Below, one piece after another: positions 4,161 through 45,510 of a stretch of 64,000 nucleotides of DNA. The notes beneath the pieces were generated by a model. It was not told where the DNA came from, made no database searches, and saw nothing but the letters and a program-made list of their open reading frames with translations. This DNA is from Brachypodium distachyon (lineage: Eukaryota; Streptophyta; Magnoliopsida; Poales; Poaceae), in contig NC_016133.3 in the NCBI RefSeq assembly GCF_000005505.3, positions 25,481,008 through 25,545,007 of the forward strand. The letters run 5' to 3'. Made by a program: the position numbers and the translations under genes. Every line of letters starts with the position of its first letter. The first letter of the stretch is position 1.

Positions 4161-5173
4161 TGATATGGACATGATCACCATGGATACGACCATTAGAACC
4201 CTAATTGTTGGTGTATCTAATAACTATTATAATCAGGTGAATTTAATTACAAAATGTTTTCAATATGTTACTTGCAAAGAGGCGGAGCTACTACCTTGTG
4301 TAATCTTATTATGTAGTCATCTTATTGAACTTTACAACTCCAAAGTGAAGATAAAGTGTGATAGCCTGCAAAGGGAGATTCAAAGTGAAGCCTATCAAGT
4401 CTACTTTTCAACGAATCAAACGGCACATGATTCGGAGTTTGCTAGAGAAAGATATCATGAATTAAAGTTGAATCCGATTCGGGTCCGAACTGCCAGGAGA
4501 CCCGAATTTGTTTTAATCACCCAGGGCGCATCCGGAGTCCAAATCAAGCAAACAAGTACTTATTGGAAAGGTAATTACAAGACCTTTACAACGGATCTGG
4601 CCCCATCAAGGGATTTGACTCGTGCTGACCGTGGCGGACAAAACAAGCTGACGGATCTGTTTTTCTGTTTCTTAAAGAGTTGTAGTTTGTTAGGAAAGTT
4701 AGAGATAGAGTTGGATTTCGGCCTCCTTACTCAAGGTGGACGAAAATATCTCTCCCTCCTCCTTTATATACCCCATGAGCCCCCCTAAGGAGCCTTGGGT
4801 TTTGATTAGATAAAGTTTAGCCATCTTTGCTACTTTCGTGTAATCGCGTGGGTCGGTTAGACAACCTATTTTACCGTCGTCAAGACTCCAACTTATCGTC
4901 TCGTTGAGACATTGGTTTGATATAGTATATTCGCAATTTGAGATTGCATCCGTTATTTATCTTGTTCTTACTTGTTCTTCGATTGCTTGCAGAAACAAAG
5001 ACCTTCATGGTCAGGTTGATCGTGCCCCCGCGTGATCAATAACCCTCTGGAGTTGGTGTATCGATTGCTAAGGCGCTGCCTCCTAGGCCGTAGTCGGATC
5101 GTCAACGTCACCTCCTACCCAAATCGAGAGTTATCAATCTCATCGAAAGATCGGGCCACCCACACCCACATCA
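4161..5173 (+). repeat. GU-A+ 5' LTR
   Basis: It runs from TGATATGGACATG to CACCCACATCA, 1013 bp, and is directly followed by CG and the PBS. It contains an open frame from 4165 to 4788 (207 codons), the U3-coded segment described at 21950. The TATA box TTTATATA lies just before the end of that frame. Confidence 0.9.
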
Positions 5174-5684
5174 CGTGGTATCAGAGCTTAAGGTTGCTCG
5201 GTGAGATTTTTCCAATTTATCCCTAGTTTAGATCTGTTTTTACCTATCGTCCAGAAAAAAGCCAAACAAAAATTAGAATTAGTTACCTTGTCCCAAAAAC
5301 CAATCTGAGCCTTGCAATTTTCACATTAGTATTTGCATTGTTGAATCTTTGCTGCATTAATCGTGTCGAGTTGCTGGATTAGATTGGATTGTTTTTCAGA
5401 TTTTTTTTCTACTAGATCGAACTTGCTTTTGGTTTTCTTGTTCTTCATGTGACGCAGGTTTTCTTCATCAATCTTCCGCCGCCAAACTCCCTGCCACACC
5501 ACCGCCACGCCATAATCTTCTGCTACCACCATATCTTCCATCGAGTCCCTCGTCGAGTACTACACCGAGTCCCTCTTCGAGTCCTACACCGAGTCCCTCT
5601 TCAAGCCTACACCGAGTCCCTCGTTGAGTCCTACACCGTGTCCCTCTTCGAGTCCTACATCGAGTCGGCAAGTTATAGTTTTCA
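5174..5684 (+). other. GU-A+ leader, first part
   Basis: Untranslated leader between LTR and gag, cut by GU-A- after ...TATAGTTTTCA. It holds about five units of the 24-bp repeat seen in all GU copies (about 5530-5668; unit CACCGAGTCCCTCTTCGAGT plus CCTA). The leader resumes at 10937. Confidence 0.75.
5176..5187 (+). promoter_or_regulatory. GU-A+ primer binding site
   Basis: TGGTATCAGAGC matches the complement of the 3' end of plant initiator tRNA-Met, the usual primer of plant LTR elements. It starts two bases after the LTR end. Confidence 0.85.
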
Positions 5685-6726
5685 TGATACGGGTGCGGGT
5701 GGCCGATCTTTCGATGAGATTGGTAACTCTCGATTTGGGTAGGAGGTGACGTTGGCGATCCGACTACGGCCTAGGAGGCAGCGCCTTAGCAATCGATACA
5801 CCAACTCCAAAGGGTTATTGATCACGCGGGGGCACGATCAACCTGACCACGAAGGTCTTTGTTCCTGCAAGCAATCGAAGAACAAGCAAGAACAAGATAA
5901 ATAGCGGATGCAATCTAAAATTGCGAATATACTATATCAAACCAATGTCTCAACGAGACGATAAGTTGGGGTTCCGAAAGCGGTAAAACAGGTGGTCTAA
6001 CCGACACACGCGATTACACGAAGTAGTAGCGATGGCTAACTTTTCACTAAACAAAACCCAAGGCTCCTTAGGGGGGCTCATGGGGTATATAAAGGAGGAG
6101 GGAGAGATACTTTCGTCCACCTTGAATAAGGAGTCCGAAATCCAACTCTATCTCTAACTTTCCTAACAAACTACAACTCTTTAGAAAACAGAAAAACAGA
6201 TCCGTCAGCTTGTTTTGTCCGCCACGGTCAGCACGAGTCGAATCTCTTGATGGGGCCAGATCCGTTGGAAAGGCCTTGTAATTAACTTTCCAACAAGTAC
6301 TTGTTTGCTTGATTTGGACTCCGGATGCGGCCTGGGTGATTAAAACAAATTCGGGTCTCCTGACAGCTCGGACCCGAATCGGATTCAACTTTAATTCGTG
6401 ATATCTTTCTCTAGCAAGCTCCGAATCATGTGCCGTTTGATTTGTTGCAAAGTACACTTTAAATCTTTTCCCTCTCAGCTGTATGAATGCTTGATTCTTG
6501 TTGGCCCTCCCGTTCGCCTCCATCGTATCTCATCTTCACCTTGGACTTGAAAAGCTCGACAAGATGCATACGTAATAAAACGAAACAAGATAGTAGTAGC
6601 TCCGCCTCTTCATAAATATGACAATGAAAACAATTACTACTTGAATTCACCTGATTATAAATCTTGTCAAATATTATAGAATTGAGGGCACCAAAGGTCG
6701 TATCCATCGTTAGCATGTCCATATCA
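5685..6726 (-). repeat. GU-A- 3' LTR
   Basis: 1042 bp, read on the minus strand from TGATATGG (6726) to GTATCA (5685). The TATA box lies near 6093-6100. The gag frame enters it across the PPT (AGAAAGGGAGGA just to the right of 6726). Confidence 0.9.
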
Positions 6727-8336
6727 TCCTCCCTTTCTTGAAAGGAAAGCCGTCCTCGGCGTCGTTTGTGCTGTAAAGAGACTGACAAAATAGACAAAGT
6801 GTGTGCATGGTATATGTATATGTCATCCATCTTTATACATCTCCTTTCTTGCACAATTAATCTTTTATAACAAAGTCTCATGAGATAATTAGTAAAACAA
6901 TCATGATGAATAACATTCCAGCAAGGAGATTGACAATATTGTTTGCATTTATAAGCGAAACGATTTCTTGTATTTGGTTTGCACCGCTCACCATTACACC
7001 ATCCCAACATTGGAGAATAATAATGAATAGTATCCAAATTAGTTACTACAATATGCTGAAATTTAGAGCAAGTCAAAGCATTAATATTCAAACAAGCATG
7101 TAAATAACTATTTGGCAAATAATCAACACCTATATTGGAGGTCCTATCAAAACGATTAAGCATGTGCAAAAATTTCTTTTCTCCCAAGAGAGGAAAATTA
7201 TCACAAGTAATGCAAATCTCATGCACCAAAATGTTATTGTTCACATCATGTTGTCCAATTAAATGAAATGTGTATCCGTGAACAGCAAAAGATTTCGAAA
7301 TTGTTAACTCACACAGTTTATCCATTGCATGCGACAAATACATGGGACTATCAAGTGCAATATAACACAAAGAATTAATAGGTGGATCGTTCTCAATCAC
7401 TCCATGTGTAATTAAATTGACACAACCTAAACCAAATTTATCTACATCACATGTTTCTCCCAAAACATTAGTTATTTCCTCACATGATTCATTCTCATCA
7501 ATATCAAAATTAATATGTGCACTCAAATCATTAGAAAAATTAATTTCATCAGTAGGTGCACTGAAATCAGCATGTAAATCAACAATTTCACATGGTGCAG
7601 AAAATTCAACGGGTATCTCATTTATTTCATCACGTGTCATATTTTGTTCAGCAACACAATCATCTTTATCATTACCTTGTAGGCTCAACACGTTTCTTGT
7701 ACACCTTCTCTCCAATTTCCTCTCCGCTTCACGAGCAAGATTAAGCAAACACAATAGAGAGTCGTATTTTCCGTATTCAATTATGTAAGAAATATCAAAG
7801 TTAAGCCCACAATAAAACCTATCCATTTTTCTTTGTTCGGTTTCATCTAAACCAGATCACAAGGTTAAAATTTGGAACTCATGGTAGTAATCATCAACAG
7901 TTTTATCATCTTGTGTCAAACGTCGTAATTTGGAACGCAACTCATAAGCATAACTTGGAGGAACATATTTTTCTCTCATGATTTTCTTCATATCAATCCA
8001 AGTGTGAGGTATTTTGTTTTCTCTAACTATCTCACACCACCATGATAATGCATCAAAACGAAATTTACTACTAGCAATTTGGACCTTACGACTATCTAGT
8101 ACATGGAAGCATGTGAATTGTTCAGTTAAAGCTAGCTCCCAATCTATATACGTTTCAGCATCATTTTCCCCCTCAAAGAAAGGTACACACAATTTAATTG
8201 TATTAGAAGGATTGTTTTGTACCGTTGCCGTGGCATTATCAACAAGAGACGTGGAGGATGGCCGTGGTGAAAAGCACTCATCGCGGTCACGGGATAGCAT
8301 CGGTCTAGTTGCCATGCTTCGTGTAAGTCCTGTCAT
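6068..8336 (-). pseudogene. GU-A- gag-U3 ORF (subfamily 1), two lesions
   Basis: ATG at 8336. The first ~150 codons match the plant retrotransposon gag fold (Retrotrans_gag-like, with W...F...W spacing and a Y-PP-Y/LR..L..L.QDDKTV..YYHEF segment). A CGA-to-TGA change creates a stop at 7857-7859; GU-B and GU-C have an Arg codon there. The frame reopens and runs to 6459, crossing into the 3' LTR at 6726. A one-base insertion near 6470 shifts it, and the shifted frame (6523-6068) carries the usual U3-coded end. The middle region (about 7500-6800) is cysteine-rich and has no family I recognise. No protease, RT or integrase motif is present. Confidence 0.75.
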
Positions 8337-9876
8337 GGTTAGTAGAAAACAAGAAACAAATCACAGTAATATGTTCCTATCAACTACTAGGATGTGGCTA
8401 CAAGTCGCTCAACTCTCAAGCTAAAAATCAAGTTCTTACAAGTTTTTATCATGCAAAACAGGAAGGTCATGGCCAGCGGCGTAACCAACACCTCCGGAGA
8501 TTAAATGTATCGATGCCTCGGTAACAAACCAACCTAGGTGTAGAATCTGTGGTGCTTGGAGGCTTTTGTGAGTAGCAAGGAATAGCAAATAATCAAATCA
8601 GCAATGCAAAGTTGAAAATATGCTCAATAATGCTAGTCCTAGCTGCTGGAGTCGATAAGAACGAATTACAGAAATAATCTAAGCCTAGATACTGAAGAAG
8701 ATAGGATAGAAAGATCAAAAGATGGCACAACAAGTAAATCCTTGGGATTTTTTTCTTCTTTTTTTTCTTTTTGTGGCCTTCTGTTTGGCTTCTTATTCTT
8801 TTCTTCTTCTTTTTTTCTTCTTTTTTTTAACCCCAGAAACTCACGCAAAAGAAGGACCGGAAAACTGTACGTCGGTCTGTCGAAGAACAGCAAAGGCTGC
8901 AGTAAGAAAAATTCAGAAAAATATGGAAAAATATGGGTTAGAAGCGTATCGACACAAGCTTTCTAGCAAAGGCAAGATCACTCAAAACGGATGTCGGACG
9001 GTGGAGAAAACTGAGAAACACCGGGCTGCAGCGACGCCGGAAAACGGATGCAGAAACTTGGAAGCTCCGAAAGTCCACCTTACAAACCGAATTTGAGGGT
9101 CAAAGTGTAGGGCAACGCCCTGGATATTTCCTGATGCGCCTCGTCGTGAGCTTTCCAAAAAGTCCAAGAACATCCAAATCCGAGTTGGTACGCAAAAGAT
9201 ACGCCCGTTTTACTGAACACGGGTCAAACCCACCCGAAACTAAAATTCTACTCGGACTCGGGTCCGAAACTGACTCGAACTCTTTCTCTTCTTTTTTTTT
9301 CGTTTTTTTTTCTTTCTTTCCTTTTTTTTTTGTTTCCTTTCTTTTTTTTGACAACTTTCCGAACAACTTGATCTCTAAACAAAATTCGATCTATTATGAA
9401 AACTTTCCAAAAGCACTCTTGATTGGACTCGGACTCGAACTTGCGGCTGAAAACTATAACTTGCCGACTCAATGTAGAACTCGATGTAGGACTCAAAGAG
9501 GGACTCGGTGTAGGACTCGAAGAGAGACTCGGTGGAAGATATGGTGGCGGCGGGAGATTATGGCGGTGGTGTGGCAGGAAGTTTGGCGGCGGAAGATTGA
9601 TGAAGGAAACCTGCGTCACACGAAGAACAAGAAAACCAAAATCAAGTTCGATCTAGTAGAAAAAATCTGAAAAACGATCCAATCTAATCCAGCAACTCGA
9701 CACGATTAATGCAGCAAAGATTCAACAATGCAAATACTGAAGTGAAAATTGCAAGGCTCAGATTGGTTCTAGGACAAGGTAACTAATTCTAATTTTTGTT
9801 TGGCTTTTTCTGGACGATAGGTAAAAACAGATCTAAACTAGGGATAAACTGGAAAAATCTCACCGAGCAACCTTAA
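8337..9876 (-). other. GU-A- leader
   Basis: About 1.54 kb between PBS and gag with no sense-strand gene. On the plus strand it shows two T-rich runs (about 8755-8831 and 9283-9350), which are purine tracts on the element's sense strand. It also has a shortened 24-bp repeat block (about 9468-9540, roughly two units). An open frame on the opposite strand (8722-9096) is discussed under findings. Confidence 0.7.
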
Positions 9877-9888
9877 GCTCTGATACCA
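9877..9888 (-). promoter_or_regulatory. GU-A- primer binding site
   Basis: GCTCTGATACCA here is the minus-strand TGGTATCAGAGC, two bases from the LTR at 9891. Confidence 0.85.
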
Positions 9889-9890
9889 CG

Positions 9891-10931
9891 TGATACGGGT
9901 GCGGGTGGCCCGATCTTTCGATGAGATTGGTAACTCTCGATTTGGGTAGGAGGTGACGTTGGCGATCCGACTACGGCCTAGGAGGCAGCGCCTTAGCAAT
10001 CGATACACCAACTCCAAAGGGTTATTGATCACGCGGGGGCACGATCAACCTGACCACGAAGGTCTTTGTTCCTGCAAGCAATCGAAGAACAAGCAAGAAG
10101 AAGATAAATAGCGGATGCAATCTAAAATTGCGAATATACTATATCAAACAAATGTCTCAACGAGACGATAAGTTGGGGTTCCGAAAGCGGTAAACAGGTG
10201 GTCTAACCGACACACGCGATTACACGAAGTAGTAGCGATGACTAACTTTTAACTAAACAAAACCCAAGGCTCCTTAGGGGGGCTCATGAGGTATATAAAG
10301 GAGGAGGGAGAGATACTTTCGTCCACCTTGAATAAGGAGTCCGAAATCCAACTCTATCTCTAACTTTCCTAACAAACTACAACTCTTTAGAAAACAGAAA
10401 AACAGATCCGTCAGCTTGTTTTGTCCGCCACGGTCAGCACGAGTCGAATCTCTTGATGGGGCCAGATCCGTTGGAAAGGTCTTGTAATTACCTTTCCAAC
10501 AAGTACTTGTTTGCTTGATTTGGACTCCGGATGCGGCCTGGGTGATTAAAACAAATTCGGATCTCCTGGCAGCTCGGACCCGAATCGGATTCAACTTTAA
10601 TTCGTGATATCTTTCTCTAGCAAGCTCCGAATCATGTGCCGTTTGATTTGTTGCAAAGTACACTTTAAATCCTTCCCTCTCAGCTGTATGAATGCTTGAT
10701 TCTTGTTGGCCCTCCCGTTCGCCTCCATCGTATCTCATCTTCACCTTGGACTTGAAAAGCTCGACAAGATGACTACGTAATAAAACGAAACAAGATAGTA
10801 GTAGCTCCGCCTCTTCATAAATATGACAATGAAAACAATTACTACTTGAATTCACCTGATTATAAATCTTGTCAAATATTATAGAATTGAGAGCACCAAA
10901 GGTCGTATCCATGGTTAGCATGTCCATATCA
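9891..10931 (-). repeat. GU-A- 5' LTR
   Basis: 1041 bp, nearly identical to 5685-6726, with the same TG...CA ends. Its U3 frame (10927-10274, 217 codons) is unbroken, so the frameshift in the 3' LTR copy arose after insertion. Confidence 0.9.
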
Positions 10932-10936
10932 TTTCA

Positions 10937-12035
10937 GCCGCAAGTTCGAGTCCAAGTCCAATCAAGAGTGCTTTTGGAAAGTGTTTCATAATAGATCGAA
11001 TTTTGTTTAGAGATCAAGTTGTTCGGAAAGTTGAAAAAAAAAAGAAAGGAAAGAAAAAAAAAGGAAAGAAAGAAAGAAAGAAAAAAGGAAAAAAAAAGAG
11101 AAAGAGTTCGAATCAGTTTCGGACCCGAGTCCGAGTAGAATTTTAGTTTCGGGTGGGTTTGACCCGTGTTCAGTAAAACGGGCGTATCTTTTGCGTACCA
11201 ACTCGGATTTGGACGTTCTTGGACTTTTTGGAAAGCTCACAATGAGGCGCACTAGGAAATATCCAGGACGTTGACCTGCACTTTGACCCTCAAATTCGGT
11301 TTGTAAGGTGGACTTTCGGAGCTTCCAAGTTTCTGCATCCGTTTTTCGGCGTCCCTGTAGCCCGGTGTTTCTCAGTTTTCTCCACGGTCCGACATCCGTT
11401 TTGAGTGATCTTGCCCTTGCTGGAAAGCTTGTGTCGATACGCTTCTAACCCATATTTTTCCATATTTTTCTGAATTTTTCTTATTGCAGCCTTTGCTGTT
11501 CTTCGAAAGACCGACGTAATGTTTTTCGGTCCTTCTTTTGCGTAAGTTTCTGGGGTTAAAAAAAAAAAAAAAGAAGAAGAAAAGAATAAGAAGCCAAACA
11601 GAAGGCCACAAAAAGAAAAAAAATCCCAGGGATTTACTTGTTGTGCCATCTTTTGATCTATCTATTTCTACCTTCTTCAGTATCTAGGCTTAGATTATTT
11701 CTGTAATTCGTTCTTATCGACTCCAGCAGCTAGGACTAGCATTATTGAACATATTTTCAACTTTGCATTGCTGATTTGATTATTTGCTATTCCTTGCTAC
11801 TCACAAAAGCCTCCAAGCTCCACAGATTCTACACCTAGGTTGGTTTGTTACCGAGACATCGATACATTTAATCTTCGGAGGGCTTGGTCACGCCGCTGGC
11901 CATCACCTTCCTGTTTTGCATGGTAAGAACTTGTAAGAACTTGATTTTTAGCTTGAGAGTTGAGCGACTTGTAGCCACATCCTATTAGTTCATAGGAACA
12001 TATTCCTGTGTTTTGTTTCTTGTCTTATACTAACC
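10937..12035 (+). other. GU-A+ leader, second part
   Basis: Continuation of the leader after GU-A-. It contains two A/G-rich runs (about 11032-11105 and 11558-11622) and no sense-strand gene. It ends at the gag ATG (12036). Confidence 0.7.
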
Positions 12036-14135
12036 ATGACAGAACTTACACGAAGGATGGAAAATAGGCCTATGCTATCAAGTGACCGACATGAGCGTTT
12101 TTCACCACGTCCATCCGCCTCATCTCTTGTTGACATTGGCAAGGCAAAAGTATATCGCATTCTTTGTAATGTCAATAATTGTTTTGGACCTTTCTTTGAT
12201 GGAAATAATGATGCTGAAGCTTATATTGATTGGCAAAATAGATCTAATTGCGCAATTCACATGCTTCCATGTACTAGATAGTCGTAAGGTCCAAATTGCT
12301 AGTAGTACATTTCGTTTTGATGCATTATCATGGTGGAGTGAGATAGTTAGAGAAAAAAAGATACCTCACACTTGGATTGATATGAAGAAAATCATGAGAG
12401 AAAAATATGTTCCTCCAAGTTATGCTTATGAGTTGCGTTCCGAATTACGACGTTTGAACCAAGATGATAAAACTGTTGATGCTTACTACCATGAGTTCCA
12501 AATTTTAACATTACGATCTAGTTTTGATGAAACAGAAGAAAGGAAAATGGATAGACTACGGGCTTAACTTTGAAATTTCTTACATGATTGAATATGGATA
12601 ATACGACTCTATATTGTGTTTGCTTAATCTTGCTCGTGAAGTTGAGCTGAAATTACAACGAAGGTCCACTACAAATGAGTCGAGCCCACAAGGTAACGAT
12701 ACAAAAGATTTTGTTGATGAACTAAATATAACGAGTGTTGGAATAAATGAGATATCTGATGAACATGCTGGCCTTGTAAAATTGTTGATTTACTTGCTGA
12801 TTTGAGCACACACATTGATTCAAATGATAATGATTTATGTGTGGATTTACCTACTGATTATGAAGAGACTTGTGATGCGATGATTAAATTTGATTTATGT
12901 TGCGTTGAATTAATTAAACATGAAGAAGTGTTTCCTATGGTTCTGCCTATTAATTCTTTGTGTTCTATATATTTGTCACATGCAATGGACAAAGTTTTCG
13001 AGTTAACAATTTCAAAATCTTCTGCTAGTGCTTATGGATACACTATTCAATTAATTGGAGAGCATGATGTGAACAATAAATTTTTGGTGCATCAGATTTG
13101 CAGTGCTTGTGATAACTTTTTTGATTTGAGAGAGAACAATATTTTGCGTATGCTCAATCATTTTGATATGACCTCTAATATTGGTGATAGTTGTATGACA
13201 AATAACTTGTGACATGATTGCACATTGATGCATATTGTAGCATGCCATTTGGAAATTTTGAATTATTGTTCACCTACATTAGGATGGTTTAATGATGAGA
13301 ATTACAAATTAAAATGTGATACTTGCCGTTGGAATATGACTATTAATCTTTTGCACTATTATGAGTTTTATTTATGTGAAACATCGAATGTGCAGCATGG
13401 GAGTGGAGTTGACATATACATATACCATGCACACACTTTGTCTATTTTGTCAGCCTCTTTTCAGCACAAACGACGCCGAGGACGGCTTTTCTTTCAAGAA
13501 AGGGAGGATGATATGGACATGATCACCATGGATACGACCATTAGAACCCTAATTGTTGATGTATCTAATAACTATTATAATAAGGTGAATTCAATTACAA
13601 AATGTTTTCAATGTGTTACTTGCAAAGAGGCGGAGCTACTATCTTGTGTAATCTTATTATGTAGGCATCTTATTGAACTTTACAAGTCCAAAGTGAAGAT
13701 GAAGTGTGATAGCCTGCAAAGGGAGATTCAAAGTGAAGCCTATCAAGTCTACTTTCCAACAAATCAAACGGCACATGATTCGGAGCTTGCTAGAGAAAGA
13801 TATCACGAATTAAAGTTGAATCTGATTCGGGTCCGAGCTGCCAGGAGACCCGAATTTGTTTTAATCACCCAGGCCGCATCCGAGTCCAAATCAAGAAAAC
13901 AAGTACTTGTTGGAAAGTTAATTACAAGACCTTTACAACGGATCTAGCCCCATCAAGGGATTCGACTCGTGCTGACCGTGGCGGACAAAACAAGCTGACG
14001 GATCTGTTTTTCTGTTTCTTAAAGAGTTGTAGTTTGTTAGGAAAGTTAGAGATAGAGTTGGATTTCGGCCTCCTTACTCAAGGTGGACGAAAATATCTCT
14101 CCCTCCTTCTTTATATACCCCATGAGCCCCCCTAA
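12036..14135 (+). pseudogene. GU-A+ gag-U3 ORF (subfamily 2), decayed
   Basis: ATG at 12036 in the context TACTAACCATGACAG, shared by all GU copies. The frame breaks near 12240 and again downstream. Remnants lie at 12082-12567, 12614-12805, 12802-13212 and 13225-13947. The last one crosses the PPT and the LTR start at 13509 in the coding frame, then is broken near 13885 by loss of a G relative to the CATCCGGAGTCC of GU-B. The family stop codon is at 14133-14135. The N-terminus resembles GU-C rather than GU-A-/GU-B. Homology is clear; coding capacity is lost. Confidence 0.75.
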
Positions 14136-14520
14136 GGAGCCTTGGGTTTTGATTAGATAAAGTTTAGCCATCTTTGCTACTTTCGTGTAATCGCGTGTGT
14201 CGGTTAGACCACCTGTTTTACCGTCGTCAAGACTCCAACTTATCGTCTCGTTGAGACATTGGTTTGATATAGTATATTCGCAATTTGAGATTGCATCCAC
14301 TATTTATCTTGTTCTTGCTCGTTCTTCGATTGCTTGCAGGAACAAAGACCTTCGTTGTCAGGTTGATCGTGCCCCCGCGTGATCAATAACCCTCTGGAGT
14401 TGGTGTATCGATTGTTAAGGCGCTGCCTCCTAGGCCGTAGTCGGATCGTCAACGTCACCTCCTACCCAAATCGAGAGTTATCAATCTCATCGAAAGATCG
14501 GGCCACCCACACCCACATCA
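13509..14520 (+). repeat. GU-A+ 3' LTR
   Basis: 1012 bp from TGATATGG to CACATCA, sharing the unusual ACATCA end with the 5' LTR at 5173. Followed by host Solo-1 sequence. Confidence 0.9.
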
Positions 14521-14640
14521 GTTCCTCTGAGTCGAGTTCCATTGGATTCAGGAATGGATCGTCCATGGACGTCTCTCCCGTGGATTTGGGGAGCGCCTAT
14601 GTTGCAAATGTGGAATGCCACCTGGGGTAACAGAGATCGG

Positions 14641-18978: not shown

Positions 18979-19352
18979 ACTCAGCTCGGAGCCCGCCAAA
19001 CTATCTATCTATTTATATTTCGTTAATCGTGATAGTCATTGACCATGCTGTCGTTGTGGTGTGACAATGTAGATTCGTGTGTTTGCTTGCAACTTTTACT
19101 TATGATTTAGGCTGGTATGCCTCGTGAACTTTTTTCTTTTGGATGCTAAATTTTAGTGAATGCTTTGCTTGTGTTATAATTGTCATCTTCATGTTTGAAT
19201 TTGCTATACTTGTGATATGCCTGTTGTTTGTATTGTTGTATTTGCCTGTGTTGTGGGGCTTAGTTTTCCCTTAGACCCTATCTGTCTATTGTCCTCATCT
19301 ATGCTGTCCCAAAATAGATGCCGTCGAGACGTGAACCTCGCCGCAGTGCTAC

Positions 19353-20364
19353 TGATATGGACATGATCACCATGGATACGACCATTAGAACCCTAATTGT
19401 TGGTGTATCTAATAACAATTATAATCAGGTGAATTCAATTACAAAATGTTTTCAATATGTTACTTGCAATGAGGCGGAGCTACTATCTTGTGTAATCTTA
19501 TTATGTAGGCATCTTAATGAACTTTACAAATCCAAAGTGAAGATGAAGTGTGATAGCCTGCAAAGGGAGATTCAAAGTGAAGCCTATCAAGTCTACTTTC
19601 CAAGAAATCAAACGGCACATGATTCGGAGCTTGCTAGAGAAAGATATCACGAATTAAAGTGGAATCCGATTCGGGTCCGAGCTGCCAGGAGACCCGAATT
19701 TGTTTTAATCACCCAGGCCGCATCCGGAGTCCAAATCAAGCAAACAAGTACTTGTTGGAAAGGTAATTACAAGACCTTTCCAACGGATCTGGCCCCATCA
19801 AGAGATTCGACTCGTGCTGACCGTGGCGGACAAAACAAGCTGACGGATCTGTTTTTCTGTTTTCTAAAGAGTTGTAATTTGTTAGGAAAGTTAGAGATAG
19901 AGTTGGATTTCGGACTCCTTATTCAAGGTGGACGAAAATATCTCTCTCTCCTCCTTTATATACCCCATGAGCCCCCCTAAGGAGCCTTGGGTTTTGTTTA
20001 GTTAAAAGTTAGCCATCGCTACTACTTCGTGTAATCGCGTGTGTCGGTTAGACCACCTGTGTTACCGCTTTCGGAACCCCAACTTATCGTCTCGTTGAGA
20101 CTTTGGTTTGATATAGTATATTCGCAATTTTAGATTGCATCCGCTATTTATCTTGTTCTTGCTTGTTCTTCGATTGCTTGCAGGAACAAAGACCTTCGTG
20201 GTCAGGTTGATCGTGCCCCCGCGTGATCAATAACCCTTTGGAGTTGGTGTATCGATTGCTAAGGCGCTGCCTCCTAGGCCGTAGTCGGATCGTCAACGTC
20301 ACCTCCTACCCAAATCGAGAGTTACCAATCTCATCGAAAGATCGGGCCACCCGCACCCGTATCA
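19353..20364 (+). repeat. GU-B LTR1
   Basis: TGATATGG...CCCGTATCA, 1012 bp. The U3 frame is open and ends with TAA at 19978-19980. The TATA box TTTATATA is at 19955-19962. Confidence 0.95.
19955..19962 (+). promoter_or_regulatory. GU LTR TATA box (LTR position 603-610)
   Basis: TTTATATA, in the context CTCCTTTATATACCCC, is conserved in every GU LTR. The U3 frame stops 18 bases downstream (628), so nearly all U3 is coding and the RNA start should fall just after the stop codon. Confidence 0.7.
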
Positions 20365-20366
20365 CG

Positions 20367-20378
20367 TGGTATCAGAGC
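20367..20378 (+). promoter_or_regulatory. GU-B primer binding site
   Basis: TGGTATCAGAGC (initiator tRNA-Met complement). The LTR end and PBS together read GTATCACGTGGTATCA, a direct GTATCA repeat around CGTG. Confidence 0.85.
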
Positions 20379-20720
20379 TTAAGGTTGCTCGGTGAGATTT
20401 TTCCAGTTTATCCGTAGTTTAGATCTGTTTTTACCTATCGTCCAGAAAAAGCCAAACAAAAATTAGAATTAGTTACCTTGTCCTAGAACCAATCTGAGCC
20501 TTGCAATTTTCACATTAGTATTTGCATTGTTGAATCTTTGCTGCATTAATCGTGTCGAGTTGCTGGATTAGATTGGATCGTTTTTCAGATTTTTTCTACT
20601 AGATCGAACTTGCTTTTGGTTTTCTTGTTCTTCGTGTGACGCAGGTTTCCTTCATCAATCTTCCGCCGCCAAACTTCCTGCCACACCACCGCCATAATCT
20701 TCCGCCGCCACCATATCTTC

Positions 20721-20828
20721 CACCGAGTCCCTCTTGGAGTCCTACACCGAGTCCCTCTTCGAGTCCTACACCGAGTCCCTCATCGAGTCCTACACCGAGT
20801 CCCTCTTCGAGTCCTACACCGAGTCGGC
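20721..20828 (+). repeat. 24-bp leader minisatellite of GU-B
   Basis: Four units of CACCGAGTCCCTCTTCGAGT+CCTA with single-base variants, then a partial unit. Copy number varies between GU copies: about five in GU-A+ (5530-5668), two in GU-A- (9468-9540) and four in GU-C (41757-41868). Confidence 0.85.
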
Positions 20829-21949
20829 AAGTTATAGTTTTCAGCCGCGAATCCGAGTCCGAGTCCAATAAGGAGTGCTTTTGGAAAGTGTTTCATCATA
20901 GATCGAATTTTGTTTAGAGATCAAGTTGTTTGGAAATTTGAAAAAAAAAAAAGGAAAGAAAAAAAAAGGAAAGAAAGAAAGAAAAAAAAACGAAAAAAAA
21001 AAAGAGTTCGAGTCAGTTTCGGACCCGAGTCCGAGTAGAATTTTAGTTTCGGGTGGGTTTGACCCGTGTTCAGTAAAACGGGCGTATCTTTTGCGTACCA
21101 ACTCGGATTTGGACGTTCTTGGACTTTTTGGAAAGCTCAGGACGAGGCGCATCAGGAAATATCCAGGGCGTTGCCCTGCACTTTGACCCCCAAATTCGGT
21201 TTGTAAGGTGGACTTTCTGAGCTTCCAAGTTTCTGCATCCGTTTTCCGGCGTCGCTGCAGCCCGGTGTTTCTCAGTTTTCTCCATTGTCCGACATCCGTT
21301 TTGAGTGATCTTGCCCTTGCTGGAAAGCTTGTGTCGATACCCTTCTAACCCATATTTTTCCATATTTTTCTGGATTTTTCTTACTGCAGCCTTTGCTGTT
21401 CTTCGACAGACCGACGTACAGTTTTCCGGTCGTTCTTTTGCGTGAGTTTCTGGGGTTAAAAAAAAAAAAGAAAAAAAAAAGAAGAAGAAAAGAATAAGAA
21501 GCCAAACAGAAGGCCACAAAAAAAAAAGAAAAAAAAATCCCAGGGATTTACTTGTTGTGCCATCTTTTGATCTATCTATTCCTACCTTCTTCAGTATCTA
21601 GGCTTAGATTATTTCTGTAATTCGTTCTTATCGACTCCAGCAGCTAGGACTAGCATTATTGAGCATATTTTCAACTTTGCATTGCTGATTTGATTATTTG
21701 CTATTCCTTGCTACTCACAAAAGCCTCCAAGCTCCACAGATTCTACACCTAGGTTGGTTTGTTACCGAGGCATTGATACATTTAATCTTCGGAGGGCTTG
21801 GTCACGCCGCTGGCCATCACCTTCCTGTTTTGCATGGTAAGAACTTGTAAGAACTTGATTTTTAGCTTGAGAGTTGAGCGACTTGTAGCCACATCCTAGT
21901 AGTTGATAGGAACATATTACTGTGATTTGTTTCTTGTTTTCTACTAACC

Positions 21950-24121
21950 ATGACAGGACTTACACGAAGCATGGCAACTAGACCGATGCTATCCCGTGAC
22001 CGCAATGAGTGCTTTTCACCACGGCCATCCTCCACGTCTCTTGTTGATAATGCCACGGCAACGGTACAAAACAATCCTTCTAATACATATAAATTGTGTG
22101 TACCTTTCTTTGAGGGGAAAAATGATGCTGAAACGTATATAGATTGGGAGCTAGCTTTAACTGAACAATTCACATGCTTCCATGTACTAGATAGTCGTAA
22201 GGTCCAAATTGCTAGTAGTAAATTTCGTTTTGATGCATTATCATGGTGGTGTGAGATAGTTAGAGCAAACAAAATACCTCACACTTGGATTGATATGAAG
22301 AAAATCATGAGAGAAAAATATGTTCCTCCAAGTTATGCTTATGAGTTGCGTTCCAAATTACGACGTTTGACACAAGATGATAAAACTGTTGATGATTACT
22401 ACCATGAGTTCCAAATTTTAACCTTGCGATCTTGTTTAGATGAAACCGAACAAAGAAAAATGGATAGGTTTTATTGTGGGCTTAACTTTGATATTTCTTA
22501 CATAATTGAATACGGAAAATACGACTCTCTATTGTGTTTGTTTAATCTTGCTCGTGAAGCGGAGAGGAAATTGGAGAGAAGGTGTACAAGAAACGTGTTG
22601 AGCCTACAAGGTAATGATAAAGATGATTGTGTTGCTGAACAAAATATGACATGTGATCAAATAAATGAGATACTCGTTGAATTTTCTGCACCATGTGAAA
22701 TTGTTGATTTACATGCTGATTCAAGTGCACCTACTGCTGAAATTAATTATTCTAATGATTTGAGTGCACAAATTAATTTTCATATTGATGAGAACGAATC
22801 ATGTGAGGAAATAACTAATGTTTTGGGAGAAACAAGTGAGATAGATAAATTTGATTTAGGTTGTGTCGAGTTGATTAGACATGGAGTGATTGATAAGGAT
22901 CCACCTATTAATTCTTTGTGTTATATTACACTTGATACACCTATATATTTGTCACATGCAATGGATAAAGTTTCTGAGTTAACAATTTCAAAATCTTTTG
23001 CTAATGCCCATGGATACACTATTCAATTAATTGGAGAACATGATGTCAACAATAAAGTTTTGGTGCATCAGATTTGCATTGCTTGTGATAACTTTCTTGA
23101 TTTGAGAGACAAAAATATTTTGTGTATGCTCAATCATTTTGATATGACCTCTAATATTGGTGATAGTTGTACGACAAATAACTTATGGCATGATTGCACA
23201 TTGACGCATATTGTAGCTCGCCATTTGGGAATTCTGAATTATTGTTCGCCTACATTAGGATGGTTTAATGATGAGAATTACAAATTAAAAAGTGATACTC
23301 GCTGTTGGAATATGACTATTAATCTTTTGCACTATTATGAGTTTTATTTACGTGAAACATCGAATGTGCAGCATGGGAGTGGAGTTAAAATTGATGACAT
23401 ATACATATACCATGCACACACTTTGTCTATTTTGTCAGTCTCTTTTCAGCACAAACGACGCCGAGGACGGCTTTTCTTTCAAGAAAGGGAGGATGATATG
23501 GACATGATCACCATGGATACGACCATTAGAACCCTAATTGTTGGTGTATCTAATAACAATTATAATCAGGTGAATTCAATTACAAAATGTTTTCAATATG
23601 TTACTTGCAATGAGGCGGAGCTACTATCTTGTGTAATCTTATTATGTAGGCATCTTAATGAACTTTACAAATCCAAAGTGAAGATGAAGTGTGATAGCCT
23701 GCAAAGGGAGATTCAAAGTGAAGCCTATCAAGTCTACTTTCCAAGAAATCAAACGGCACATGATTCGGAGCTTGCTAGAGAAAGATATCACGAATTAAAG
23801 TGGAATCCGATTCGGGTCCGAGCTGCCAGGAGACCCGAATTTGTTTTAATCACCCAGGCCGCATCCGGAGTCCAAATCAAGCAAACAAGTACTTGTTGGA
23901 AAGGTAATTACAAGACCTTTCCAACGGATCTGGCCCCATCAAGAGATTCGACTCGTGCTGACCGTGGCGGACAAAACAAGCTGACGGATCTGTTTTTCTG
24001 TTTTCTAAAGAGTTGTAATTTGTTAGGAAAGTTAGAGATAGAGTTGGATTTCGGACTCCTTATTCAAGGTGGACGAAAATATCTCTCTCTCCTCCTTTAT
24101 ATACCCCATGAGCCCCCCTAA
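21950..24121 (+). CDS. GU-B gag-U3 fusion protein, intact, 723 aa
   Basis: ATG at 21950, TAA at 24119-24121. Residues ~50-165 resemble the Retrotrans_gag fold: YIDWE at the start, 'LSWWCEI', 'REKYVPPSYAYELRSKLRRL' and 'YYHEFQIL'. Residues ~200-270 are charged and Asn/Glu-rich. Residues ~325-490 are cysteine- and histidine-containing and unassigned. Residues ~500-514 (RRRGRLSFQEREDD) resemble the acidic tail that ends many plant Ty3 polyproteins, suggesting that pol was deleted between gag and this tail. From residue ~515 (23494) the frame is inside the 3' LTR and all of U3 is read, 209 residues with several cysteines. There is no protease, RT, RNase H, integrase or zinc knuckle, so mobility must depend on proteins supplied in trans. 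The gag-only class resembles TR-GAG elements. The role of the U3-coded part is unknown. Confidence 0.8.
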   Translation: MTGLTRSMATRPMLSRDRNECFSPRPSSTSLVDNATATVQNNPSNTYKLCVPFFEGKNDAETYIDWELALTEQFTCFHVLDSRKVQIASSKFRFDALSWWCEIVRANKIPHTWIDMKKIMREKYVPPSYAYELRSKLRRLTQDDKTVDDYYHEFQILTLRSCLDETEQRKMDRFYCGLNFDISYIIEYGKYDSLLCLFNLAREAERKLERRCTRNVLSLQGNDKDDCVAEQNMTCDQINEILVEFSAPCEIVDLHADSSAPTAEINYSNDLSAQINFHIDENESCEEITNVLGETSEIDKFDLGCVELIRHGVIDKDPPINSLCYITLDTPIYLSHAMDKVSELTISKSFANAHGYTIQLIGEHDVNNKVLVHQICIACDNFLDLRDKNILCMLNHFDMTSNIGDSCTTNNLWHDCTLTHIVARHLGILNYCSPTLGWFNDENYKLKSDTRCWNMTINLLHYYEFYLRETSNVQHGSGVKIDDIYIYHAHTLSILSVSFQHKRRRGRLFFQEREDDMDMITMDTTIRTLIVGVSNNNYNQVNSITKCFQYVTCNEAELLSCVILLCRHLNELYKSKVKMKCDSLQREIQSEAYQVYFPRNQTAHDSELARERYHELKWNPIRVRAARRPEFVLITQAASGVQIKQTSTCWKGNYKTFPTDLAPSRDSTRADRGGQNKLTDLFFCFLKSCNLLGKLEIELDFGLLIQGGRKYLSLLLYIPHEPP
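23481..23493 (+). promoter_or_regulatory. GU-B polypurine tract
   Basis: AAGAAAGGGAGGA directly abuts the LTR2 start TGATATGG, as a plus-strand priming site should. It is also coding: the ORF reads through it. Confidence 0.75.
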
Positions 24122-24505
24122 GGAGCCTTGGGTTTTGTTTAGTTAAAAGTTAGCCATCGCTACTACTTCGTGTAATCGCGTGTGTCGGTTAGACCACCTG
24201 TTTTACCGCTTTCGGAACCCCAACTTATCGTCTCGTTGAGACTTTGGTTTGATATAGTATATTCGCAATTTTAGATTGCATCCGCTATTTATCTTGTTCT
24301 TGCTTGTTCTTCGATTGCTTGCAGGAACAAAGACCTTCGTGGTCAGGTTGATCGTGACCCCGCGTGATCAATAACCCTTTGGAGTTGGTGTATCGATTGC
24401 TAAGGCGCTGCCTCCTAGGCCGTAGTCGGATCGTCAACGTCACCTCCTACCCAAATCGAGAGTTACCAATCTCATCGAAAGATCGGGCCACCCGCACCCG
24501 TATCA
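23494..24505 (+). repeat. GU-B LTR2
   Basis: Direct copy of LTR1. Instead of host DNA it is followed by CG, a second PBS (24508-24519) and about 130 bases of leader. LTR2 and LTR3 face each other. Confidence 0.95.
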
Positions 24506-24645
24506 CGTGGTATCAGAGCTTAAGGTTGCTCGGTGAGATTTTTCCAGTTTATCCCTAGTTTAGATCTGTTTTTACCTATCGTACAGAAAAAGCCAAACAA
24601 AAATTAGAATTAGTTACCTTGTCCTAGAACCAATCTGATACCACG
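24506..24645 (+). other. GU-B junction: second leader start joined to inverted PBS
   Basis: 24506-24633 repeats the start of the leader after LTR1. At TCTGA (24634-24638) it switches to the minus-strand PBS TCTGATACCA (24634-24643), CG and LTR3. TCTGA is shared by both sides (leader CCAATCTGAGCC, inverted PBS GCTCTGATACC), a 5-base microhomology. Confidence 0.9.
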
Positions 24646-25657
24646 TGATACGGGTGCGGGTGGCCCGATCTTTCGATGAGATTGGTAACTCTCGATTTGG
24701 GTAGGAGGTGACGTTGACGATCCGACTACGGCCTAGGAGGCAGCGCCTTAGCAATCGATACACCAACTCCAAAGGGTTATTGATCACGCGGGGGCACGAT
24801 CAACCTGACCACGAAGGTCTTTGTTCCTGCAAGCAATCGAAGAACAAGCAAGAACAAGATAAATAGCGGATGCAATCTAAAATTGCGAATATACTATATC
24901 AAACCAAAGTCTCAACGAGACGATAAGTTGGGGTTCCGAAAGCGGTAAAACAGGTGGTCTAACCGACACACGCGATTACACGAAGTAGTAGCGATGGCTA
25001 ACTTTTAACTAAACAAAACCCAAGGCTCCTTAGGGGGGCTCATGGGGTATATAAAGGAGGAGAGAGAGATATTTTCGTCCACCTTGAATAAGGAGTCCGA
25101 AATCCAACTCTATCTCTAACTTTCCTAACAAATTACAACTCTTTAGAAAACAGAAAAACAGATCCGTCAGCTTGTTTTGTCCGCCACGGTCAGCACGAGT
25201 CGAATCTCTTGATGGGGCCAGATCCGTTGGAAAGGTCTTGTAATTACCTTTCCAACAAGTACTTGTTTGCTTGATTTGGACTCCGGATGCGGCCTGGGTG
25301 ATTAAAACAAATTCGGGTCTCCTGGCAGCTCGGACCCGAATCGGATTCCACTTTAATTCGTGATATCTTTCTCTAGCAAGCTCCGAATCATGTGCCGTTT
25401 GATTTCTTGGAAAGTAGACTTGATAGGCTTCACTTTGAATCTCCCTTTGCAGGCTATCACACTTCATCTTCACTTTGGATTTGTAAAGTTCATTAAGATG
25501 CCTACATAATAAGATTACACAAGATAGTAGCTCCGCCTCATTGCAAGTAACATATTGAAAACATTTTGTAATTGAATTCACCTGATTATAATTGTTATTA
25601 GATACACCAACAATTAGGGTTCTAATGGTCGTATCCATGGTGATCATGTCCATATCA
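24646..25657 (-). repeat. GU-B LTR3, inverted
   Basis: 1012 bp, reverse complement of LTR1/LTR2, from GTATCA (24646) to TGATATGG (25657 read backward), then TSD GCTAC. With LTR2 it forms inverted arms of about 1024 bp (including PBS bases) around a loop of about 116 bp. Confidence 0.95.
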
Positions 25658-26001
25658 GCTACTGACAATGAGGAGGGGCAGGACAACAGTGTTGCCACTA
25701 TGCAACAACTGCTGGCAGCCCAGACGCAGATTCTGCAAGCACTGACCCAACAAATGAACAACAATCCCAACAACAACCACAACAACAACCAGCACCACAA
25801 CCCACCACCTCAAGTGGACATGTTAACCCGCTTTCTGAGGTTGCGCCCACCTACCTTCACTAGCTCGTCTGAACCAATAGTGGCTGATGATTGGCTCCAC
25901 TCTGTGAGCAAGTGCCTAGTGACCGTGGGCTGCACTGAGGCAGAAAAGGTGAGGTTTGCTGCTCACCTACTTGAAGGACCTGCCGCAGCATGGTGGGAGA
26001 C

Positions 26002-37989: not shown

Positions 37990-40399
37990 CTGGATCGACT
38001 CTAGCACACACAGTTTCAAGATGTAATATCATAGAACAGAGGTCTCAATATTACAACGAATCAGCCAGAATTTAAAAGGTACTTACAACTCGCATAACCT
38101 CACGGGTTAGCTGGAAATAAAACACCTGTTTAGCAACGGAAAGTGAAAGATACAAGGGCACCTCAACACCACGGTGAGAGCGTGTTGGAATGTAAGCCCG
38201 TAACCCAAACAAGCAGAACGTACATCTTACTCGTCGTCGGAGCTTCCTGCATCATTAAACGATGCAGCCACTAGGGTCAATACATTGAACAAGATTCACT
38301 AGGAGTTATATCAGAACCTACCAAGTATATGCATAATGTGGCAAAGTGGGGTACAAGGCTATTTGCATAAAAGCTTAGTTATTGAATCCTATCTTTTAAT
38401 CAAATAGAATATTTATCACTATTTGACACGGGGTAGCCACACCCATGCTCCTATTATCCGAGAGCACATTGATGTGGATTCATCAATTGCTCCTACCCTG
38501 TTCAACCATTCATTTTATTTAAGAAGTTAGAATGAGTGAGACTTTCCTTACAGCTCCACATCTAGTCGCTCAAAATGTCCGTTGCCGGGGACACGGCTAA
38601 GCACTTACTTTTGACGCTCTCGAGAGTTTGTACACATTCCCCACAAGAAACCGACGTGTTAATCCCTTGCTGTCCTCAGGGTAGAGTAGCAACGGCATCG
38701 ATTACGAGATTTTCAGAGGTAATTTCCTAAACCACGAGAGAATCACGCTCCCCCTACACGGCTACCTCAGTACAATTCCTCGGGTCTAGGTTCATACAAC
38801 TTACTCTTGTCTCGCCAGAGCCCATATAGCATTGTGGTTGTACTAGAAGCTTCTAAATAGGAAACTAGTCCAGTCTCGGTTACCCCAGGTGGCATTCCAC
38901 ATTTGCAACGTAGGCGCTCCCCGAATCCACGGGAGAGACGTCCATGGACGATCCATTCCTGAATCCACAGGAACTCGACTCAGAGGGACCCATAGAAATG
39001 GACCTGACGCCGCTAATCCTCAAAATCTTCAAAGCAGCCCACCCAGGACGGTTCATTGAATTATTTGTTTTGCCTTACTTCTAACAAAACATTTCTTATC
39101 GCCAAAGGCATAACAATATCATAATATAGTTATTTCCCCCACGATACTACCATAGCCTAGCATTCAACTACAATCGATGGCAATTTTGGTAGCAAGGTAA
39201 TGGCGAGGGTAAACTAAACTACCTGGGATTTACAGCTAGCATAGAAGTACGAGTAATATTCCTAATGCAACTAATAAAACATCTAGTGCATAGTAAAAAT
39301 ATTTAGGAGAATGATCAAAGTGAACTTGCCTTGTCCAAGGTTGTGGTGGTTCTCGCACTCTTCGCAACAACAATGATTACACTCCACAGAATCTAAAATA
39401 AAAGAAACATACACACAATAAACACAACATTCAATACAAAAGCCATGCCATGATGCATATGCTATGATGATGCACGCAAGGGCTACTTCTAACGTACAAA
39501 GTTTCGTTTCTGTTTTGAAAAGTTTTTCAAAAGATTTGGACAGATTATACAACAACAAGTGGTAACTAATATGCATGATACATGAATAGAGTTTAAAACA
39601 AAAGATTGTGCGGCTTTTGCAACATAGAGCAATATTTAACTTGTATGCCATGATTATACACAAAATAATTTCTTTTCTGGTCCTAATGGACAGAGAACAA
39701 GTTTAAATAATTTTATAGCAAGCTAACATGCTCAAAACTATTTTCAAACAATTCATTTGAAAATTAAACCATATTCAACCATTCTGTAAATAGCTTCTGT
39801 CTAAGTTGCTCAAAACTGCAATTAAATAGTGCCAAAATATTCTACACGTTGTGACGATTCCAGAAAGGTGTGGATGACAATTTTTGGACAAACGGTTTGA
39901 AAGATACGAGGCTTTGAAGTTACAGGGGCTTTTCTGCACGTGGCAGAACACAAGGGGCCGCAGCCTAGGGTTCCGGCCGGCGGGGCGAGCTTGCCGGATG
40001 GCGGCGGGGCGAGCAGGCAGAGGCGGCGCGTGCGGCAAGCGGGCGCAGCGCGGGCGGGCGGGCGGCGGGCGGCGCCTGCGCTGGGGAAGAAGGCAGACGG
40101 TGGCGGCCAAACTCAAAAGTGAGCACGTCACGGCGTTCGGAACGAGGAGAGGAGAGAGGCTAGGGGGTTGGCACGGGGAGAACCTCACCGGAACGGCGGA
40201 GAAACGCGAAGAACGGCGGTGGCAGCAACGAACTCCGGCGAGAAATTAATCTCTAACCGGTGCGAAATTGATCGTGGGGTTTGGGGGAAGTGGTAGAGGG
40301 GTTCAGGTGCTTCGATATGACGCGCGGGGTTTCTGATTTGGAGGCTCGTGCGCGAAGAAATCGGAATGGAAGCGTGGGCGACTCGGACGGTGCGTGGCC

Positions 40400-41399
40400 A
40401 TGCTAACCATGGATACGACCATTAGAACCCTAATTGTTGGTATATCTAATAACAATTATAATCAAGTGAATTCAATTACAAAATGTTTTCAATATGTTAC
40501 TTGCAAAGAGGCGGAGCTACTATCTTGTGTAATCTTATTATGTAGGCATCTTATTGAACTTTACAAGTCCAAAGTGAAGATAAAGTGTGATAGCCTGCAA
40601 AGGGAGATTCAAAGTGAAGCCTATCAAGTCTACTTTCCAACAAATCAAACGGCACATGATTCGGAGCTTGCTAGAGAAAGATATCACGAATTAAAGTTGA
40701 ATCCGATCCGGGTCCGAACTGTCAGGAGACCCGAATTTGTTTTAATCACCCAGGCCACATACGGAGTCCAAATCAAGCAAACAAGTACTTGTTGGAAAGG
40801 TAATTACAAGACCTTTCCAACGGATCTAGCCCCATCAAGAGATTCGACTCGTGCTGACCATGGCAGACAAAACAAGCTGACGGATCTGTTTTTCTGTTTC
40901 CTAAAGAGTTGTAGTTTGTTAGGGAAGTTAGAGATAGAGTTGGATTTCGGCCTCCTTACTCAAGGTGGACGAAAATATCTGTCTGTCCTCCTATTTATAC
41001 CCCATGAGCCCCCATATGAAGCCTTGGGTTTTGTTTAGTTAAAAGTTAGCCATTGCTACTACTTCGTGTAATCGCGTGTGTTGGTTAGACCACCTGTTTT
41101 ACCTTTCGGAACCCCAACTTATCGTCTCGTTGAGACATTGGTTTGATATAGTATATTCGCAATTTTAGATTGCATCCGCTGTTTATCTTGTTCTTGCTTG
41201 TTCTTCGATTGCTTGCAGGAACAAAGACCTTCGTGGTCACGTTGATCGTGCCCCCGCGTGATCAATAACCCTCTGGAGTTGGTGTATCGATTGCTAAGGC
41301 GCTGCCTGCTAGGCCGTAGTCGGATCGTCAACGACACCTCCTACCCAAATCGAGAGTTATCAATCTCATCGAAAGATCGGGCCACCCGCACCCGTTTCA
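40400..41399 (+). repeat. GU-C 5' LTR, 5'-truncated
   Basis: 1000 bp ending CCCGTTTCA, followed by CG and the PBS. The U3 frame (40394-41038) is open and extends seven codons past the usual stop because CCTAAGG became ATATGAA-like. Confidence 0.9.
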
Positions 41400-41401
41400 C
41401 G

Positions 41402-41413
41402 TGGTATCAGAGC
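41402..41413 (+). promoter_or_regulatory. GU-C primer binding site
   Basis: TGGTATCAGAGC, initiator tRNA-Met complement, two bases after the LTR. Confidence 0.85.
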
Positions 41414-42994
41414 TTAAGGTTGCTCGGTGAGATTTTTCCAGTTTATCCCTAGTTTAGATCTGTTTTTACCTATCGTCCAGAAAAAGCCAAACAAAAATTA
41501 GAATTAGTTACCTTGTCCTAGAACCAATCTGAGCCTTGCAATTTTCACTTTAGTATTTGCATTGTTGAATCTTTGCTGCATTAATCGTGTCGAGTTGCTG
41601 GATTAGATTGGATCGTTTTTCAGATTTTTTCTACTAGATCGAACTTGCTTTTGGTTTTCTTGTTCTTCGTGTGACGCAGGTTTCCTTCATCAATCTTCCG
41701 CCGCCAAACTTCCTGCCACACCACCGCCATAATCTTCCGCCGCCACCATATCTTCCACCGAGTCCCTCTTCGAGTCCTACACCGAGTCCCTCTTCGAGTC
41801 CTACACCGAGTCCTTCTTCCAGTCCTACACCGAGTCCCTCGTCGAGTCCTACATCGAGTCGGCAAGTTATAGTTTTCAGCCGCGAGTTCGAGTCCGAGTC
41901 CAATCAAGAGTGCTTTTGGAAAGTGTTTCATAATAGATCGAATTTTGTTTAGAGATCAAGTTGTTCGGAAAGTTGTGAAAAAAAAGGAAGGGAAAGAAGA
42001 AAAAAAAGGAAGAAAGAAAGAAAAAAAAAACGAAAAAAAAGAGAGAGAAAGAGTTCGAGTCAGTTTCGGACCCGAGTCCGAGTAGAATTTTAGTTTCGGG
42101 TGGGTTTGACCCGTGTTCAGTAAAGCGGACGTATCTTTTGCATACCAACTCGGATTTGGACGTTCTTGGACTTTTTGGAAAGCTCACGACGAGGCACATC
42201 AGGAAATATCCAGGGCACAGCCCTGCACTTTGACCCTCAAATTCGGCATCTAAGGTGGACTTTTCGAGCTCCAAAGTTTCTGCACCCGTTTTACGGCACC
42301 GGGGCAGCGCAGTATATCTCAGTTTTCTCCACCGTCCGATCTCCGTTTCGAGTGATCTTGCACTTGTTGGAAAGCTTGTTTTGATACGCTTCTAACCCAT
42401 ATTTTCTCATATTTTTCTGAATGTTTCTTACTGCAGCCTTTGCTGTTCTTCGACAGACCGACGTACAGTTTTCCGGTCCTTCTTTCGCGTGAGTTTCTGG
42501 GGTTAAAAAAAAAAGAAAAAAAAGAAGAAGAAAAGAAAAAGAAGCCAAACAGAAGGCCACAAAAAGAAAAAAGAAGAAAAAAAATCTCAGGGATTTACTT
42601 GTTGTGCCATCTTTTGATCTTTCTATCCTATCTTCTTAGTATCTAGGCTTAGATTGTTTCTGTAATTCGTTCTTATCGACTCCAGCAGTTAGGACTAGCA
42701 TTATTGAGCATATTTTCAACTTTGCATTGCTGATTTGATTATTTGCTATTCTTTGCTACTCACAAAAGCCTCCAAGCTCCACAGATTCTACACCTAGGTT
42801 GGTTTGTTACCGAGGCATCGATACATTTAATCTTCGGAGGGCTTGGTCACGCCGCTGGCCATCACCTTCCTGTTTTGCATGGTAAGAACTTGTAAGAACT
42901 TGATTTTTAGCTTGAGAGTTGAGCGACTTGTAGCCACATCCTAGTAGTTGATAGGAACATATTACTGTGATTTGTTTCTTGTTTTCTACTAACC
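41414..42994 (+). other. GU-C leader
   Basis: Same layout as the GU-B leader: four 24-bp repeat units (about 41757-41868) and purine runs (about 41978-42052 and 42506-42585), then TACTAACCATGACAG at the gag start. No sense-strand gene. Confidence 0.75.
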
Positions 42995-45147: not shown

Positions 45148-45510
45148 TTAAAAGTTAGCCATTGCTACTACTTCGTGTAATCGCGTGTGTTGGTTAGACC
45201 ACCTGTTTTACCGCTTTCGGAACCCCAACTTATCGTCTCGTTGAGACATTGGTTTGATATAGTATATTCGCAATTTTAGATTGCATCCGCTGTTTATCTT
45301 GTTCTTGCTTGTTCTTCGATTGCTTGCAGGAACAAAGACCTTCGTGGTCACGTTGATCGTGCCCCCGCGTGATCAATAACCCTCTGGAGTTGGTGTATCG
45401 ATTGCTAAGGCGCTGCCTGCTAGGCCGTAGTCGGATCGTCAACGACACCTCCTACCCAAATCGAGAGTTATCAATCTCATCGAAAGATCGGGCCACCCGC
45501 ACCCGTATCA
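44499..45510 (+). repeat. GU-C 3' LTR
   Basis: TGATATGG...CCCGTATCA, 1012 bp, full length, including the ten bases missing from the 5' LTR. Confidence 0.92.

Follow-up and report, generated by a model that had tools for sequence, protein, structure and literature searches.

The unit at 19353..25657 raises the question of how one retrotransposon insertion can come to carry three LTRs, the third of them inverted, with a U3 end facing the host DNA on either side. It lies in a stretch of 64,000 nucleotides from Brachypodium distachyon (C4:25481008-25545007), which we call the window and whose coordinates are used wherever no contig is named. All genome-wide searches were carried out in the 271-Mb assembly of 11 contigs.

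Structure of the unit and its target site

The order of the parts is LTR1(+), internal region, LTR2(+), CG spacer with primer binding site (PBS) and leader, and LTR3(-), with one target-site duplication around all of them (Table 1). The three LTRs have the same length of 1,012 bp, and the 128 bp which separate LTR2 from the LTR3 segment (24506-24633) consist entirely of CG, PBS and leader. LTR2 and LTR3 are inverted arms with 1,024 nt in common (LTR, CG and TGGTATCAGA) and a spacer of 116 nt. The first-pass annotation had given the same order inside one GCTAC duplication, with PBS and leader instead of host DNA behind LTR2. Both copies of GCTAC and the coordinates of the parts could be located, its 128 bases of second leader are the CG, PBS and leader together, and the roughly 12 bases of CG and PBS it had seen on LTR3 are made up of two and ten. 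The three-LTR structure is real in the assembly.

Table 1. Parts of the unit and its target-site duplication, in window coordinates.
Feature	Position	Strand	Remark
Left target-site duplication GCTAC	19348..19352	.	adjoins U3 of LTR1; undisturbed paralogous sites
LTR1	19353..20364	+	outer end U3 (TGATATGG)
CG spacer and 12-nt PBS TGGTATCAGAGC	20365..20378	+	matches the 3' end of tRNA-Met(CAT)
Leader 1	20377..20497	+	first two bases are the PBS end; native TCTGA at 20493-20497, then GCC
gag reading frame (Retrotrans_gag domain)	21950..23493	+	runs on into LTR2
Polypurine tract AAGAAAGGGAGGA	23481..23493	+	adjoins U3 of LTR2; limits by eye
LTR2	23494..24505	+	
Second CG spacer and PBS	24506..24519	+	
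Second leader copy	24520..24633	+	24555 C and 24583 A unlike leader 1
Junction overlap TCTGA	24634..24638	.	common to leader and PBS complement
Complement of TGGTATCAGA (10 nt of PBS) and CG	24634..24645	-	part of the LTR3 segment
LTR3	24646..25657	-	inverted; outer end U3
Right target-site duplication GCTAC	25658..25662	.	adjoins U3 of LTR3

The LTRs, the PBS and (by eye) the polypurine tract of an LTR retrotransposon are all present. The internal region comprises 3,129 bp, and the one long frame scanned in it contains a gag domain (PF03732, E 9.2e-17), while no pol domain matched above the cut-off in this frame. The element is apparently a gag-only non-autonomous LTR retrotransposon and was therefore probably moved by the enzymes of another element. 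Its 12-nt PBS is the complement of the last bases of a tRNA-Met(CAT) gene with CCA added, and by this complementarity tRNA-Met(CAT) is the primer of the element. More copies of the same family, in both orientations, are found at 4161-14523 and 40390-45513 of the window.

The first-pass annotation had staked its reading on the presence of GCTAC at both sides, and it is present at both. Searching the whole genome for the 23-bp site with at most 3 mismatches gave four places. Two of them have exactly one GCTAC, namely C3:14914829 with 0 mismatches and C5:16763919 with 1 mismatch; C3:12442385 (2 mismatches) has GCTAT in place of GCTAC, and at C1:35535521 (3 mismatches) GCTAC is not kept. The flanks of the unit, joined as 400+400 bp, align through all four paralogous sites with 88-94% identity over 492-754 bp. 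Because these paralogous host sites are undisturbed, two out of four with exactly one GCTAC, the comparison indicates that the whole unit was inserted by a single integration through two U3 ends, as the first-pass annotation had proposed.

Recombination and nesting are common in plant repeats, which could speak for a chromosome rearrangement after a normal insertion or for two separate insertions. We regard these as extremely improbable, because behind the U3 end and GCTAC the right side continues in host DNA of the normal host orientation, which at the undisturbed sites follows on directly from the left flank. If the left border had folded back or been inverted later, the complement of the left flank would stand there instead. 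Two insertions, on the other hand, would have had to strike the same five bases, so that the earlier statement that LTR3 is not a separate later insertion stands. The LTR termini form a short terminal inverted repeat (U3 TGATATGG, U5 TGATACGG, alike at seven out of eight positions). Hence the mirror-image LTR ends of the first-pass annotation do exist, but they need not be what permits the integration, since two U3 ends are identical by construction.

Relatedness of the repeated parts

LTR1, LTR2 and LTR3 have G, T and T at LTR position 709, have C, A and C at position 864, and are otherwise identical; LTR1 and LTR3 show one difference per 1,012 sites. For comparison we used 27 other LTRs of the family (30 loci from 40 scored candidates, minus the element's own three). 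The bases 511T and 595T, common to all three LTRs of the unit, occur in none of these 27, and the same holds for 709G of LTR1 and for 864A of LTR2, one of the 27 having G at 864. The nearest of them differs from LTR3 at 8 sites. This distribution of shared bases suggests that LTR1, LTR2 and LTR3 share one birth. With substitution rates of 1.3e-8 and 7e-9 per site per year, the mean pairwise LTR divergence of 0.13% corresponds to about 50,000 to 94,000 years.

Near-identical repeats of a kilobase, placed tail to tail, are hard to assemble, and an assembly error has to be considered for this reason. It is nevertheless very unlikely here, as each part has its own variants (709G in LTR1, 864A in LTR2 and two in leader 2), so the three LTRs are not one sequence laid down three times. 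Furthermore, an exact U3 end together with a matching duplication is not expected from a misjoin.

The two leader copies differ at two out of 116 sites (24555 C versus 20414 G and 24583 A versus 20442 C). Set against two changes in the 3,152 bases of the three LTRs and leader 1, this is an excess (Fisher p 0.007), which is not significant when the private change alone is counted (p 0.10). The other leaders of the family used here number 28, being the best 30 of 40 by likeness to leader 2 minus the element's own two. At leader position 38 they have C in 11 out of 28 and G in 17 out of 28, and the C of leader 2 is thus a family allele; A is also present at this position (L048, L055, L074). The A of leader 2 at position 66 is found in none of the 28. 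A second parent for leader 2 was sought among the 11 copies with C at position 38 that were read, and no clear candidate was seen: all 11 of these leaders adjoin R-U5 regions with at least five differences from that of the element, the start of R being put at LTR position 631 from the TATA motif. The C at position 38 may therefore be a new mutation, and the leader differences appear too slight to prove separate templates for leaders 1 and 2.

The junction and the probable copying step behind it

When the native leader CCAATCTGAGCC is compared with the native PBS complement GCTCTGATACC at the junction, exactly TCTGA is common to both. An overlap of at least 5 nt arises in 0.44% of random joins of both sequences (200,000 trials). 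From the 5' end of U3 to 10 nt of PBS, LTR3 has the content of a strong-stop DNA in which 10 nt of the primer tRNA were copied. Both the strong-stop-like content of LTR3 and the join at TCTGA as the complement of TCAGA had been noticed in the first-pass annotation and are borne out, the overlap being 5 nt.

The explanation towards which we lean is a faulty cDNA, in which plus-strand strong-stop DNA would have primed a minus strand on the leader of a genomic RNA, followed by a single integration via two U3 ends. The third LTR would be displaced plus-strand strong-stop DNA, 5'-U3-R-U5-CG-TGGTATCAGA-3', whose 3' TCAGA would anneal to UCUGA in the leader of the genomic RNA and replace the tRNA as primer. 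Reverse transcriptase would extend it and copy leader, PBS, U5 and R; the R copy would transfer to a 3' R, and the minus strand would be extended through U3 and then the internal region until it reached the PBS on a template that had kept its 5' end. Since RNase H would remove the 5' part of the first RNA, leader 1 and its PBS would be expected from another template. The plus strand, starting from the polypurine tract, would comprise LTR2, PBS and leader and then a copy of the strong-stop DNA joined to it, so that LTR3(-) would end precisely at U3. LTR1 would be produced by the second-strand transfer, and integrase would join the two U3 ends to host DNA and thereby generate the GCTAC duplication.

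A free primer of this kind has a precedent. In the excerpted text of PMC5371799, the model for Ty3 and Ty1 includes repeated priming at the polypurine tract, the first plus-strand strong-stop DNA stopping 12 nt into the tRNA and being displaced, and such dead-end DNA builds up in the particles. Strong-stop DNA as primer is also favoured by the two differences between the leaders, as a two-template origin requires. Against it speaks that the overlap is just 5 nt, that this is a single event, and that LTR3 carries 10 nt of PBS versus 12 nt in the Ty3 model and 18 nt at C3:29119691, so that one has to suppose either trimming or a premature stop.

The first-pass annotation had placed the mis-priming not on RNA but on a plus DNA strand which ran on past LTR2 in a circle or tandem element. 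This would also produce every observed junction, and a three-LTR unit with all LTRs in the same direction does occur in the family (C6:7691920-7701592). However, the usual first and second strand transfers would suffice to build the whole unit, and a circle or tandem template is an extra intermediate which the RNA-template version does not need. In addition, a single circle predicts equal leaders at birth, while two sites out of 116 differ, possibly by later mutation. We therefore keep from the earlier mechanism the joining of strong-stop DNA and the single integration, and consider the circle or tandem unlikely.

Similarly doubtful is an origin by alternative end joining, in which two plus strands, one of them strong-stop DNA and the other terminating within the leader, would anneal by their 3' ends over 5 nt. 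Prior to integration, the resulting short LTR-leader-LTR(-) molecule would then recombine with a complete cDNA by way of its LTR. According to the part of a 2025 review consulted (PMC12786077), factors of this pathway act in the second strand transfer via PBS microhomology, and trimming of ends would account for 10 nt instead of 12 or 18. Yet a separate recombination step is required for LTR1 and the internal region, and no free-standing short LTR-leader-LTR(-) insertion was present in the fetched loci, which were chosen by similarity.

If strong-stop DNA was indeed the primer, the unit looks like a germline fossil of an intermediate that is otherwise called a dead-end product, and joins of LTR and PBS to inverted leader should occur in the cDNA of active elements. 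It is possible, but we say so only tentatively, that displaced strong-stop DNA can replace the tRNA on a second RNA and that integrase in planta fully accepts a cDNA in which both ends are U3. What the unit itself shows is an integration via two U3 ends that left a target duplication of the normal kind. It is a snapshot of a faulty copying step and not a new kind of element.

Known systems, a predicted hairpin and other irregular copies

Sabot and Schulman (2007) attributed three-LTR complexes to reverse transcription in which the template is switched abnormally from one RNA to another in the same particle (PMC1950507). Like the present unit, these have three LTRs, highly similar outer LTRs and one target-site duplication of 5 bp. 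Their internal LTR is common to two complete cores, and in the model their outer ends are ordinary, whereas here two complete cores are absent, the third LTR is inverted, the leader is all that is present of a second core, and U3 forms either outer end. In comparison to template-switch complexes, the inverted third LTR, the lack of a second core and the two U3 ends thus appear to be new. Three LTRs within one target duplication are shared with plant tandem LTR retrotransposon structures, as PMC11899658 describes them. The dead-end strong-stop DNA of Ty1 and Ty3 has nearly the content of LTR3, with a tRNA copy of 12 nt there and 10 here; it is a dead-end product in the excerpt of PMC5371799, while here a similar strand seems to have been incorporated in a copy that integrated. 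Among titles and abstract openings we recognised no inverted third LTR in one target duplication, and such a case may still exist in the literature.

Inverted LTRs are also a feature of autointegration, in which 3' ends of the cDNA are joined to element DNA and inverted LTR arrangements arise in cDNA. In an autointegrant an LTR terminus is joined to internal element DNA. Unlike this, the join in the present unit lies on the PBS side of LTR3, with GCTAC and host DNA directly outside each outer terminus. Retroelement autointegration products are the topic of PMC2644782.

An RNA reading through LTR2 (24133-25018) is predicted to form a near-perfect hairpin of about 385 bp, with -793.8 kcal/mol versus a mean of -238.55 for 20 shuffles, when its start is assumed near LTR position 640 from the TATA motif at 605. 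Going by this predicted hairpin, copies of this kind could be a starting point for the silencing of their family by small RNAs.

The first-pass annotation had also suggested a genome search for other such joins. By exact pattern the junction is unique in the assembly; a mutated junction would escape this search. The sequence TATCACGTGGTATCAGA without the following G has two exact matches in the genome, this junction and C5:18934339, where the element is ordinary and its PBS has mutated. With patterns in which the PBS is left after 12 nt or after 8 nt, 3 and 9 genome sites were obtained, of which 3/3 and 4/9 were read. In four of the seven (L075, the L076 site, L078, L079) a leader of the ordinary kind follows, altered at about one base. 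Of the other three, L059 (departure site C3:28998297) is joined to later internal sequence, L077 has the tRNA copy, and L080 leads into sequence unlike the usual leader. In a scan of the fetched loci for tail-to-tail LTR ends, this element and L076 (C1:44296555-44299574) alone were found. The latter was rejected as a second case, its left LTR comprising only about the last 70 bp without the U3 end. L076 belongs to another subfamily; in it a U5 end is followed by leader and about 1,105 nt of internal sequence, and behind these come a leader of 199 nt and an LTR in inverted orientation.

At C3:29119691-29119710 (L077) lies TGGTATCAGAGCCAGGTT, in which 18 nt match the complement of the 3' end of tRNA-Met without a difference. 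This stretch is inherited tRNA sequence, left naturally by plus-strand DNA into which the tRNA had been copied. An LTR end with the 12-nt PBS but without the following T is limited to 3 genome sites by exact pattern. The unit at C6:7691920-7701592 (L048, L049, L052) has three LTRs in the same direction with CCAAC at both outer ends, the ends alone of its internal regions having been seen; behind its first LTR stand CGTGGTC and another R-U5 piece (LTR positions 699-1012). At C3:28997290 the PBS is cut at TGGTATCA and joined to later internal sequence. L077, the C6 unit and C3:28997290, few as these cases are, suggest that slips at the strong-stop end and the PBS are not very rare in this family.

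At C3:28664352 (L080) an LTR end with PBS (TGGTATCAAAGC) leads into sequence other than the usual leader. Family LTRs in mirrored order are found at C3:28994783-29021402, where the upstream flank GGCGGGGCGACT is common to L053, L057 and L059, as if the segment were an inverted duplication.
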